DNA from: Rubripirellula amarantea
Lineage (GTDB): Bacteria > Planctomycetota > Planctomycetia > Pirellulales > Pirellulaceae
Direction of reading: 5' to 3'
Assembly: GCF_007859865.1 (NCBI RefSeq)
Contig: NZ_SJPI01000002.1
Coordinates: 452,651 to 516,650 of the forward strand
DNA length: 64,000 nt
Made by a program: the position numbers and the translations under genes. Of the stretch, positions 54,047 through 58,389 are shown in pieces; the first letter of the stretch is position 1, and each line of letters opens with the position of its first letter. Under the pieces are notes generated by a model. The model ran no database searches. It saw nothing but the letters and a program-made list of their open reading frames with translations, and was not told the DNA's origin.

Positions 54047-54997
54047 ATGAACGTTCCTCAATCCTCTCAGTCAGAACCATCAACCCCGATTGACGGTCTG
54101 GTCGAAGAGTTACGTAGCGGCAACTTAGAGCGTCGTGACTTCCTTCGCCGCGCGGTAGCAACAGGCGTTTCGTCGGCGATGGCTTACTCGTTGCTTGGGC
54201 AAACCAGCGCGTCAGCTCAGAACATGACCACCCAGGCGTTGGGTGAGGAAACGGCGTCGCCGCCTCATTCCTCGATGCCGCAACCCTCCCTGCCGCATAC
54301 TTCGCCTTCGCCTTCACCACCACATTCTCATCCGACGACGATGGCTGTGGGCGAAGAAGACAGGCCGATTCCGCCGAGCAACGTAACCACGCGAGCTCTG
54401 GGGGAAGAATCCACCACCGGACCTCCTGCGACAACGGCGCGCGTGGGTGAGGAAACGTCCGCGACCTACACGTATGGCGAAGGGCCACCAACCGCGACGA
54501 CTCGTGCGATTGGTGAAGAAGGGAATCCGCCGACCACCTACGCGGTAGGTGAAGAGGAAATCACGACAACAACCCGCGCGATCGGCGAAGAAGCACCTCC
54601 GACAGCAACAACGTACGCGGTTGGCGAAGAACAGCCGCCTGTCTATACGACCCAGGCATACGGCGAAGAACAACCGCCGCAACCTTACTGCGAACGCAAT
54701 CCAACGACGCAGGCCTACGGCGAAGAATCGCAACGGCCAGTGACGACTCAGGCTCATGGTGAAGAGCATTCAGCAACGACCTTAGCCTACGGTGAAGAAG
54801 GCCAAACGCTTCCTCCCCCAGCACATCATGATGATCACGGACATCACGATGATCACGGGCATCACGATGATCATCGTTCAGGAGGAAACGGTTCAGGAGG
54901 AAACGGTTCGGGACGCACGATCAACCCTGGTCGGCGAATCGAATCGACAATTCGGAACCAGATTCCCAAAGTGTGGAAAAGCTTCCGTCGGTGGTAG
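54047..54997 (+). CDS. Putative graspetide precursor: Tat-signal protein with twelve TTxxxxEE motifs
   Basis: A 316-residue protein from ATG 54047. Residues 1-58 form a leader with a Tat-type motif (L-E-R-R-D-F-L-R-R, 27-35), a hydrophobic stretch and a likely cleavage site (ASAQ). Residues 61-251 carry twelve exact TTxxxxEE motifs, mostly TT-x-A-x-G-E-E: 61-68, 97-104, 114-121, 129-136, 151-158, 163-170, 175-182, 188-195, 201-208, 220-227, 233-240 and 244-251, with one degenerate copy near 139-146. TTxxxxEE is the plesiocin-type (group 2) graspetide core, where an ATP-grasp ligase makes ester bonds between Thr hydroxyls and Glu carboxyls. The tail has three HHDDH-type repeats, a Gly/Ser linker and a cationic end (KVWKSFRRW). 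An ATP-grasp gene follows after 47 bp. The product is predicted only. Confidence 0.85.
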   Translation: MNVPQSSQSEPSTPIDGLVEELRSGNLERRDFLRRAVATGVSSAMAYSLLGQTSASAQNMTTQALGEETASPPHSSMPQPSLPHTSPSPSPPHSHPTTMAVGEEDRPIPPSNVTTRALGEESTTGPPATTARVGEETSATYTYGEGPPTATTRAIGEEGNPPTTYAVGEEEITTTTRAIGEEAPPTATTYAVGEEQPPVYTTQAYGEEQPPQPYCERNPTTQAYGEESQRPVTTQAHGEEHSATTLAYGEEGQTLPPPAHHDDHGHHDDHGHHDDHRSGGNGSGGNGSGRTINPGRRIESTIRNQIPKVWKSFRRW

Positions 54998-55044
54998 GCC
55001 TGGGGCTACTACCGTGAATCCTGATCATTGGGCAATGTGAATTG

Positions 55045-55908
55045 ATGTCTCAGTCGCTGTTATTAATCGTGGGTGGTGAATCCGATCCCAATACGCAGCG
55101 TGTCGTCGATCAGGCTCACCTGCGAGAGGTTTCGTATTCGTTTTGGAATACGGATCGCGACGATGCGCATCGAATCGCTTGGGATTACCAATCGTCGCGT
55201 TTGGACCTGGGGGATCAAACGATTGACCCGACGTCAGTCTTCCTTCGATATAACGTGTTCGAAGGTGATCCCAAACGGAACATTGCAGCATTTGAAATGA
55301 TCCAGGCGTACGTATTGGCGTGGCGATCGATCAAAGTGCTCAATCGAAGAACGATGACCGACGGCAATAACAAATCCAAGAACCTGAGGTTGGCTTTGGA
55401 TCTGGGGTTCCAGATTCCCGAGACAGTGGTGATGGGTGATCTAACGCCATTGTCGAGCATCCCCGAACCAGATCGTCGTGCGATGAAGCCATTGAGCGGT
55501 GGAGCTCACACGGTCAGTGTTGGCGACGTTCATCAAGACGTCGAGAAGCTGGCTGGCTACGGGCCAATGTTTGTTCAGGAGAAGCTTGCCGGTGAGAACT
55601 TGCGGGTCTTTTCGATTGGCGGAGAATTGTTTTGCTTCCACTTGCAAACTCAATCGCTTGATTATCGCGACGATGCGAGCGTGGGAGTCGTGCAGGTGGA
55701 CGTTCCCGAGGAAATACGTGTGCTTTCGGGTGAACTAGCAAAACAGATCGGCTTTGATTACTGCGCGCTTGATTTTCGATGTCGAAGCGGCATGGACGAT
55801 CCCGTCTTCTTAGAAGTGAACTCGTTTCCGATGTTCGTTCGGTTTGATGACGCCGGTCAGAATTGTCTGGCTGACGCTATGTTGAAGTTTTTGTGCTTCG
55901 GAGCGTAA
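55045..55908 (+). CDS. ATP-grasp ligase, RimK/MvdD-like, putative graspetide macrocyclase
   Basis: A 287-residue protein from ATG 55045; a TTG precedes it directly. The N-terminal domain (SLLLIVGGESDPNTQ, VFLRYNVFEGD) matches the graspetide-ligase layout. Catalytic-fold features are K148 (AMKPLSGG), the hinge VQEKLAGENLRVF (E179-K180, R187), R208 and the magnesium site D243 with E257 and N259 (LDFRC ... VFLEVNSFP). Length fits PsnB/MvdD-type enzymes. Such ligases activate a Glu/Asp carboxylate as acyl phosphate and join it to a Ser, Thr or Lys side chain. The neighbouring TTxxxxEE protein is the obvious substrate. A generic glutathione synthetase-like role is less likely given the pairing. 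Confidence 0.88.
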   Translation: MSQSLLLIVGGESDPNTQRVVDQAHLREVSYSFWNTDRDDAHRIAWDYQSSRLDLGDQTIDPTSVFLRYNVFEGDPKRNIAAFEMIQAYVLAWRSIKVLNRRTMTDGNNKSKNLRLALDLGFQIPETVVMGDLTPLSSIPEPDRRAMKPLSGGAHTVSVGDVHQDVEKLAGYGPMFVQEKLAGENLRVFSIGGELFCFHLQTQSLDYRDDASVGVVQVDVPEEIRVLSGELAKQIGFDYCALDFRCRSGMDDPVFLEVNSFPMFVRFDDAGQNCLADAMLKFLCFGA

Positions 55909-56850: not shown

Positions 56851-58389
56851 ATGAATACTGACCAACTCAAAAACATTGACCAACAGAAGTTCGACCGGGT
56901 CTGCACGATCGCGCGTGAAGCGATGATGATTCAGACTTCGGCAGATACCCTCGAATGGGACGAACGAACTCGGATGCCTGCAGCGGCAGGCGACTATCGA
57001 GCGTCACAGGTTTCGCTGCTGCGAGCTGAAACGCACAAACGACGCACCGACGTTGAGTTTGGCGGATTGGTCGAAGAACTTTATGAAACTCTAGATGACA
57101 AGGACGCGCACGATGACGTGACTGCGACCATCCGAGGCCTGCATCGAGACTTCATGCGAGACCGCTGTTTGCCAACGGAACTGGTGCGTGCAACTTCGGA
57201 AGCGACGGTGCGCGGACAACAAGCTTGGGATGCTGCTCGCAAAGCAGATGACTTTTCGTTGTTCCGAGATTCGCTGCAACGAGTCGTCGATCTCAAAAGA
57301 GAGAGTGGCAATTTGATTGGCGCAGCAACGCAAAGGTCTTGCTACGAAGCGTTGTTGGACGAATACGAGCCTGATGCGAAAGTTGACCAATTGCAGGCGA
57401 CCTTCGATTCGCTGCGAGGACCCCTCGTTGAATTAATCGCCGCGATCGCCGATGCACCTCGCCAGCCTGATGTCTCGCTATTGGAAAGATCCTACGACAT
57501 TGATGCTCAGCGGGCTTTTGGTACTCGAGTGTCTTCGGCAATTGGGTTCGACTACCAACGCGGCCGCCTCGATGAAACCTCGCACCCGTTTTGTACCACG
57601 CTGGGGCCGCGCGATATTCGAATCCTGACCCGCTATGAATCGAATTGGTTGCCGAGTGGATTGTTCGGCACGCTCCACGAAGCAGGACACGGGATGTACG
57701 AACAAGGGTTGCGTGATGATTGGTTTGGATTGCCACCGGGTTCGTACGTATCGCTGGGAATGCACGAGTCACAGTCTCGGTTGTGGGAAAACCAAGTGGG
57801 GCGAAGCAAGGCGTTCTGGAGCTGGCTGTACGCGGATGCTCAGAAAACGTTTGCGTCGAACTTAAGTGACGTGCCTTTAGATGATTTCTATTTCGCGATC
57901 AACACGATCCGCCCCAGCCTGATCCGAGTTGAAGCCGACGAAGCGACCTACAACTTACACATTTTGATTCGATTCGATTTAGAGCGTCAGCTAATCGAGG
58001 GTGGACTTAGCGTTGACGAATTGCCGGAAGCTTGGAACGCTCGCTACCAAAACGATCTCGGCGTCACGCCACCATCAGACGCCAACGGAGTGCTGCAAGA
58101 CGTTCATTGGTCGGCGGGACTGATTGGTTATTTTCCGACTTATACGCTGGGCAACCTAGCATCGGCTCAGTTGTACGATGCGGCGGAAGCGTCGTTGGGG
58201 GATTTGTCGAAGATGTTCGAAAGAGGCGAATTCGCGCCGCTTGCCGGTTGGCTAAATGAACACGTCTATCGTCACGGGCGGTGCTTCTCGGGGTTGGAAT
58301 TGGTCGAAAACGCCACCGGTAAACCACTGTCGGCAGAGCCCTTGATTGCGTACCTGCGTGGAAAGCTCGCACCTCTCTACGGGATCTAG
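56851..58389 (+). CDS. Metallocarboxypeptidase, family M32
   Basis: A 512-residue cytoplasmic enzyme from ATG 56851, the usual length of thermostable (Taq-type) carboxypeptidases. The zinc centre is H276-E-A-G-H280, following SGLFGTLHEAGHGMYEQGL. Other M32 signatures are WDERTRMPAAAG, SHPFCTTLGPRDIRILTRY and SLGMHESQSRLWENQVGRS. It removes C-terminal residues from peptides, with a broad preference. Its start lies 177 bases from the divergent secreted-protein gene. Confidence 0.93.
   Translation: MNTDQLKNIDQQKFDRVCTIAREAMMIQTSADTLEWDERTRMPAAAGDYRASQVSLLRAETHKRRTDVEFGGLVEELYETLDDKDAHDDVTATIRGLHRDFMRDRCLPTELVRATSEATVRGQQAWDAARKADDFSLFRDSLQRVVDLKRESGNLIGAATQRSCYEALLDEYEPDAKVDQLQATFDSLRGPLVELIAAIADAPRQPDVSLLERSYDIDAQRAFGTRVSSAIGFDYQRGRLDETSHPFCTTLGPRDIRILTRYESNWLPSGLFGTLHEAGHGMYEQGLRDDWFGLPPGSYVSLGMHESQSRLWENQVGRSKAFWSWLYADAQKTFASNLSDVPLDDFYFAINTIRPSLIRVEADEATYNLHILIRFDLERQLIEGGLSVDELPEAWNARYQNDLGVTPPSDANGVLQDVHWSAGLIGYFPTYTLGNLASAQLYDAAEASLGDLSKMFERGEFAPLAGWLNEHVYRHGRCFSGLELVENATGKPLSAEPLIAYLRGKLAPLYGI

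Follow-up and report, generated by a model that had tools for sequence, protein, structure and literature searches.

Three described graspetide systems bear most closely on a two-gene locus of Rubripirellula amarantea that we analyse here, in which a precursor gene with twelve TTxxxxEE motifs (hereafter cores) is followed by a gene for an ATP-grasp ligase (Table 1). The pair lies in a 64,000-nucleotide stretch of contig NZ_SJPI01000002.1 (positions 452,651 to 516,650 of the forward strand), which is referred to as the window. Plesiocin (PsnA2/PsnB) is tetravalent and has two adjacent esters per repeat (PMC12291112), and the window system shares with it a single PsnB-like ligase and cores in tandem, each with a Thr pair and a Glu pair. 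Unlike plesiocin, the window system has twelve cores rather than four, a 316-residue precursor with a signal resembling those of twin-arginine translocation (Tat), Pro-rich linkers and a conserved basic aromatic tail, and its ligase is ~22% identical to PsnB. The tri-core microviridin AMdnA/AMdnC is alike in that one ATP-grasp ligase serves several cores per chain, which AMdnC processes distributively (PMC5934393). However, AMdnA has a microviridin core and leader and three cores, and the part of that source on which we draw does not mention a Tat signal. The characterised multi-core graspetides plesiocin, thuringinin and AMdnA are described as having three or four cores. Lastly, in fuscimiditide (ThfA/ThfB) recognition is proposed to depend chiefly on the leader motif RPFG, and the leader still works when it is moved to the C-terminus (PMC13003496), such that a graspetide ligase can accept a C-terminal recognition element. 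That arrangement was engineered and has a different core, whereas in the window a recognition role of the tail is a candidate.

We consider it probable that the two genes form a graspetide system of the plesiocin type. Its twelve cores would be braced by esters, and the chain would be exported by Tat and probably act as a multivalent protease inhibitor. The ligase, judging by its homology to PsnB, would use ATP to activate Glu, and in each core two Thr and two Glu would be joined by two side-chain esters, giving up to 24 esters per chain and a loss of ~432 Da. Ester formation would take place in the cytoplasm, where ATP is, and the N-terminal RRDFLRR signal would pass the folded chain to Tat; a signal peptidase cut after ASA would then release 259 residues, of which three precede the first core. 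The weakest step of this scheme is that the first loop residue of each core would set protease specificity, making the chain a string of inhibitor heads. As is expected of the graspetide class, the locus combines a ligase of the graspetide branch, a conserved adjoining precursor and a core with Thr/Ser before Glu/Asp at fixed spacing; the ester cross-links of the window precursor are a prediction from sequence.

A plesiocin-type reading had already been proposed from the letters of the window (the original prediction), and is now supported by the sequence of the ligase, by its position in a tree and by linkage of the two genes in 18/18 close relatives. The label itself rests on TTxxxxEE, which we take to be the core of the plesiocin group (group 2); our literature search found no paper that spells this motif out. 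Three features escaped the original prediction: the Tat-like leader, the conserved tail at the C-terminus and the operon setting. The locus is likely a Tat-exported variant of the plesiocin type, new in its Tat-like leader, its protein-sized precursor and its conserved tail, with a chemistry that we infer.

Table 1. Features of the locus and associated loci. Positions are those of the window except in the last row.
Feature	Position	Strand	Remarks
Precursor gene, 316 amino acids	54047..54997	+	Tat-like leader, twelve cores, His/Asp-rich stretch, basic aromatic tail
Tat-like leader, residues 1-57	54047..54217	+	ASA before Q58 is the predicted signal peptidase cut
Twin-arginine motif RRDFLRR	54131..54151	+	residues 29-35
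Core 1 TTQALGEE	54227..54250	+	residue 61
Core 2 TTMAVGEE	54335..54358	+	residue 97
Core 3 TTRALGEE	54386..54409	+	residue 114
Core 4 TTARVGEE	54431..54454	+	residue 129
Degenerate core TYTYGEG	54464..54484	+	residue 140
Core 5 TTRAIGEE	54497..54520	+	residue 151
Core 6 TTYAVGEE	54533..54556	+	residue 163
Core 7 TTRAIGEE	54569..54592	+	residue 175
Core 8 TTYAVGEE	54608..54631	+	residue 188
Core 9 TTQAYGEE	54647..54670	+	residue 201
Core 10 TTQAYGEE	54704..54727	+	residue 220
Core 11 TTQAHGEE	54743..54766	+	residue 233
Core 12 TTLAYGEE	54776..54799	+	residue 244
His/Asp-rich stretch HHDDHGHHDDHGHHDDH	54824..54874	+	sequence
C-terminal tail IPKVWKSFRRW	54962..54994	+	near-invariant W310, R315, W316
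ATP-grasp ligase, 287 amino acids, PsnB-like	55045..55908	+	alternative in-frame TTG start 55042
Peptidase M32 carboxypeptidase	56851-58389	+	0.9 kb downstream of the pair; Pfam
Row of locus L053: 1315-residue TPR-containing open reading frame, glycine-rich A, PDZ-like protein, repeat protein B, ECF sigma	G000 contig C1, 2838000-2853000

Precursor, ligase and their linkage

As originally predicted, the precursor contains twelve exact TTxxxxEE motifs between residues 61 and 251 of its 316 (starting residues in Table 1), and no other reading frame of the window contains any. When residues 56-255 were shuffled 2000 times, the mean number of motifs was 0.108 and the maximum 3, compared with 12 in the real sequence. 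Eleven of the twelve fit the narrower pattern TTxAxGEE, in agreement with the predicted predominance of this form, the exception being the fourth core. The fixed residues of the cores (T, T, G, E, E) share an identical codon in just 48% of pairwise core comparisons, which argues for selection on the protein motif and not for a recently arisen repeat in the DNA. Between the cores lie linkers 3 to 28 residues long, and nine of the eleven contain Pro. So many cores in one chain had been thought unusual, and twelve is indeed the highest number among the family members examined. However, the window precursor is no outlier, since 45 other members (among 120 of 144 proteins listed) contain between 3 and 11 exact cores, and up to 16 are found in TTxAxGEE proteins whose N-termini differ. 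By eye, the Stieleria tagensis precursor (L011, 5176-5937) carries four near-perfect 29-residue repeats with one core each, and seems to have gained cores recently by internal expansion. A PDB sequence search with the window precursor gave 16 matches, none of them significant. Among 17 genome-derived precursors compared, the His/Asp-rich stretch is unique to that of the window, the other 16 being without it; it may bind metal.

The ligase gene starts (ATG) 47 bp after the precursor in the same direction, as had been noted. Its product has PsnB (7drm, E 7e-11) as its best PDB sequence match, and the order of its NCBIfam matches is TIGR04187 (42.8 bits), MvdC (37.4), MvdD (28.8) and RimK (27.1), the first three falling below their cut-offs of 350, 425 and 475, respectively. 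An alternative is that the ligase is RimK-like and adds amino acids such as Glu to its neighbour or to another substrate, leaving the repeats uncrosslinked; the presence of RimK among these sub-cut-off matches is in keeping with this. Fold comparison was equivocal on this point. With the AlphaFold2 model of the ligase (predicted local distance difference test (pLDDT) 95.0, predicted template modelling score 0.91), rows 1-30 of the Foldseek output were all PsnB, AMdnB, CdnC, MdnC, PruB or MdnB, with LysX appearing from row 31, whereas in VIA-align PsnB, RimK and LysX tied. Fold was therefore set aside as a discriminator, and the assignment rests on sequence, phylogeny and linkage. The tree places the ligase on the side of PsnB, with a split of 100/100 from eleven RimK-like relatives, of which three are typed as RimK/MptN, but gives PsnB itself no clear exact neighbour. 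Two long rows of this tree, L036 and a CdnC fragment, join in a way that the program flags as possibly false. The tree, the Foldseek order, the PDB search and the NCBIfam order all favour graspetide ligases, and we regard a RimK-like activity as very improbable. Comparison with PsnB and MvdC/D by profiles and tree, a check proposed with the original prediction, thus gave no grouping with RimK-like ligases, the VIA-align tie aside. Judged by its sequence, the ligase is of the graspetide type, with PsnB as its closest solved relative.

Linkage of the two genes was examined in 241 genomes of the window's family, of which 39 had any match to the ligase and 18, including the window's own genome, had one with E < 1e-130. 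A multi-core open reading frame (ORF) lies directly upstream and on the same strand in 18/18 of these close cases (at L030 the end of the contig hides the leader). The loci of 12 of the 25 weak matches were also scanned, and none had two or more TTxxxxEE motifs in one frame within flanks of ~1.5 kb. Four of the 12 were typed: L031, L035 and L040 score at least 160 bits to RimK, so that RimK-scoring relatives lack the repeats, a further point against a RimK-like role of the window ligase. The fourth, L036 (G110 contig C100), belongs to a family genome without the pair and codes for another kind of graspetide maturase, which scores 254.6 bits to TIGR04187 against a cut-off of 350; its precursor was sought as TTxxxxEE only, and no frame held two or more such motifs.

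The distribution of the repeats gives the same picture. A DNA pattern for TTxAxGEE occurs at least three times in 19/241 genomes, 18 of which are those with the pair; the nineteenth (G001) has three single matches on three contigs and no cluster. The backward pattern, used as a control, reaches at least three in 4/241 genomes (G029, G050, G086, G163), hence the pair genomes G129 and G133, with three matches each, stand out by the place of these before the ligase and not by their number. The counts behind this comparison are complete, and the places are those of the matches listed. Presence of a TTxAxGEE cluster and of the ligase agree in 241/241 genomes (Fisher 1.6e-27, although the genomes are related and not independent). 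Named carriers of the ligase include Rubripirellula obstinata and strains of Stieleria, Roseiconus and Rhodopirellula. In the protein database, 26 precursor-ligase pairs on contigs of equal size, five of them with neighbouring locus tags, were found by eye among the matches listed. Across the phylum, which is rich in ribosomally synthesised and post-translationally modified peptides (RiPPs; PMC11118758), a search of 392 genomes added a further seven remote ligases with E no higher than 1e-15. A TTxAxGEE repeat ORF adjoins five of these, in two cases on the opposite strand. The search of planctomycete genomes for such repeats next to ATP-grasp genes that had been suggested with the original prediction, and its test of whether homologues of the two genes are linked, therefore both came out in its favour. 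Precursor and ligase are inherited together. Within the window's genus group the pair is present in just 2/22 genomes (some of the 22 are incomplete), pointing to frequent loss or movement.

Leader, tail and ligase recognition

The first 57 residues of the precursor have the layout of a Tat signal, namely an n-region, RRDFLRR, a weakly hydrophobic stretch and ASA before Q. Both R29 and R30 are invariant (47/47 aligned members), AxAQ is found in 32/45 members, and a loose AxA/G/S pattern in 44/45. The leader scores 12.0 bits to the Tat profile TIGR01409, below the cut-off of 16.7, and aligns to a 28-residue CueO chain (9e04_H) in the PDB, which we take to be the Tat signal of CueO, at an E of 2 that is not significant by itself. 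TatC is encoded in the same genome. Within that genome the leader has no significant second match, which is uninformative. The layout of the leader makes Tat export of the braced chain likely. Conservation extends past the twin-arginine core, with Y at +18 in 42/46 members, which could be explained by common descent.

The known graspetide leader motif Phhx(1,2)h is matched by 4/47 members, and the window leader contains no P followed by two hydrophobic residues. This motif is found within the first 30 residues of about half of graspetide precursors and is not universal (PMC8939145); it is typical of graspetides, not defining. In a literature search combining Tat terms with graspetide terms, the word 'graspetide' appeared in none of the matches listed, and it was likewise absent from those listed for planctomycetes and RiPPs. 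Among the papers searched, two mention graspetides as well as planctomycetes (PMC11118758, PMC11888242).

At the other end of the chain is a tail with the consensus W-x-x-F-x-R-W, in which W at -7 is found in 45/47 members and R at -2 and W at -1 in 46/47. End motifs were counted with strict patterns in 120 of the 144 TTxAxGEE-type proteins listed. One such motif is carried by 112 of the 120, as W..[FW].RW (44), a PFGx[FY] ending (59) or an HPF start (9); the eight without comprise an FEGFRRW variant, a protein cut short at PF, a PFGRR end, two odd ends and three with nothing alike. The PFGx[FY] ending is common to four N-terminal clusters without a mutual BLASTP match at 1e-4. Given the RPFG sequence of fuscimiditide and the activity of its leader at the C-terminus, a C-terminal recognition element is, by analogy, plausible in the PFGx[FY]-ended proteins.

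TTxAxGEE repeats, ended by PFGx[FY] in the 59 proteins, thus occur as C-terminal tails of other N-terminal domains (P0135, P0147, P0157, P0170 and relatives), which are tyrosinase (PF00264), PrcB_C (PF14343) and two families without a Pfam name; no match was significant in a PDB sequence search with P0170. Another group (P0189, P0192, P0210, P0229, P0231 and others) has HPF[DSAG] at its start, then a Tat-like signal and TTxAxGEE cores, and lacks an aromatic C-terminal tail. At L044 the ligase adjoins a repeat ORF resembling P0229 of this group.

The near-invariance of the tail, the recurrence of PFGx[FY] across N-termini without a mutual match and the repositioned fuscimiditide leader could all be accounted for if the ligase were recruited by the C-terminal tail, making this a natural 'follower' graspetide whose N-terminus is taken by the Tat signal and whose chemistry is the same. 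Such recruitment is possible, yet we hold it to be rather unlikely. In the window tail the residue before the W is V and not P, and conservation of the tail could instead serve export or surface attachment. Moreover, the precursor, intergenic linker and ligase of strain K23_9 (L002) were modelled with AlphaFold2 as one chain, from an alignment of seven in-frame fusions and 42 ligases (a MAFFT alignment of fusion and separate precursors laid the precursors over the ligase and was discarded). In this model the four decades of residues 1-40 have pLDDT values of 83, 95, 92 and 85 and include helices at 3-18 and 24-33, whereas the core region averages 29-44 per decade and the tail is a helix at 34-38. 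The model favours the Tat-like leader over the tail as the ligase contact, with the reservation that isolated helices may score high in AlphaFold2 on their own. Docking of the tail on the ligase was accordingly dropped as our preferred account and kept as a rival.

Following the model, we tentatively suggest, while thinking it doubtful, that the Tat signal is also the graspetide leader and that the ligase binds residues 1-45 (the n-region helix and the RRDFLRR helix). On the same uncertain footing, the ligase might cross-link up to twelve cores while masking the signal and then release the braced chain, acting as a Tat proofreading chaperone. TorD-type proofreading chaperones bind Tat substrates, and the maturation of these in the cytoplasm precedes folded export. 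The window chain would resemble TorD-type substrates in maturing before folded export, with its signal possibly bound by the maturation enzyme. It would differ from them in having no cofactor, in maturing by ester cross-linking and in that its signal would be bound by the ligase, as the model suggests. We know of no earlier RiPP with a Tat signal as its leader.

Core variability and genomic context

A survey with the pattern [TS]T....EE recovered 398 cores from 46 proteins. The fourth loop residue is Gly in 397/398 and the second is Ala in 317/398, whilst the first is hypervariable, with an entropy of 3.44 bits and L, Q, Y, R, M, F and K among its residues. We infer from this hypervariable position within a near-fixed core the pattern of an inhibitor loop. 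Every graspetide characterised so far is a protease inhibitor according to PMC8939145, and in plesiocin a larger number of motifs is reported to give higher potency (PMC13097080). By analogy, the braced chain is probably a multivalent protease inhibitor.

The genes that accompany the pair in relatives raise a different possibility, namely that the chain is a surface protein with a structural or adhesive role, in which esters brace an extended string in the cell envelope without inhibiting anything. A conserved, secreted-looking, glycine-rich repeat protein (A) is encoded in 16/18 pair genomes, and in 13 of them its gene is no more than 5 kb from the ligase, often in an operon-like row with a sigma factor. 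In the fullest loci (L003, L006, L012) the order is TPR protein, A, PDZ-like protein, B, precursor, ligase and extracytoplasmic function (ECF) sigma factor, and an ECF gene follows the ligase in 8/12 named loci. The labels 'secreted' and 'PDZ-like' are our reading of the sequences, since none of the A, B and PDZ-like proteins that were scanned could be assigned to a Pfam family. The short, mostly Pro-containing linkers would also suit an extended string. However, protein A is encoded in 34 genomes in all, of which 18 lack the pair, and a hypervariable first loop residue would be needless in a pure structural brace; the inhibitory activity of characterised graspetides points the same way. A surface role without inhibition is possible but, in our view, rather unlikely, and multivalent protease inhibition is the function we favour.

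In the window the pair stands apart from the A/B/ECF row. The genome of the window has the row intact on another contig (Table 1); the pair, which in the relatives' version sits between B and the ECF gene, is missing there. The pairless G170 of the same genus has the same row. With the row intact without the pair, and the pair alone in the window, the pair behaves as a two-gene cassette. Six nearby ORFs of the window were typed with Pfam as TPR, FG-GAP, pseudouridine synthase, one without a family, M32 carboxypeptidase and a weak zinc ribbon, with no transporter among the six. The M32 gene is the sole peptidase among these typed neighbours; it is outside the relatives' row, not having been reported in three or more of their loci, and is probably unrelated to the pair.

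Implications for graspetide biology

The precursor family suggests that graspetides can be protein-sized, with up to 24 esters per chain, and would be made in the cytoplasm and exported by Tat. Should the Tat signal prove to double as the leader, this would be, to our knowledge, the first such RiPP. The pair makes three matters testable: the number of esters formed by one ligase, the use of a Tat signal as a RiPP leader and natural C-terminal recognition in graspetides. Its carriers include named planctomycete strains (Rubripirellula obstinata, Stieleria, Rhodopirellula). Moreover, the TTxAxGEE tails on other proteins, including tyrosinase, suggest that ester hairpins may be a general add-on module.
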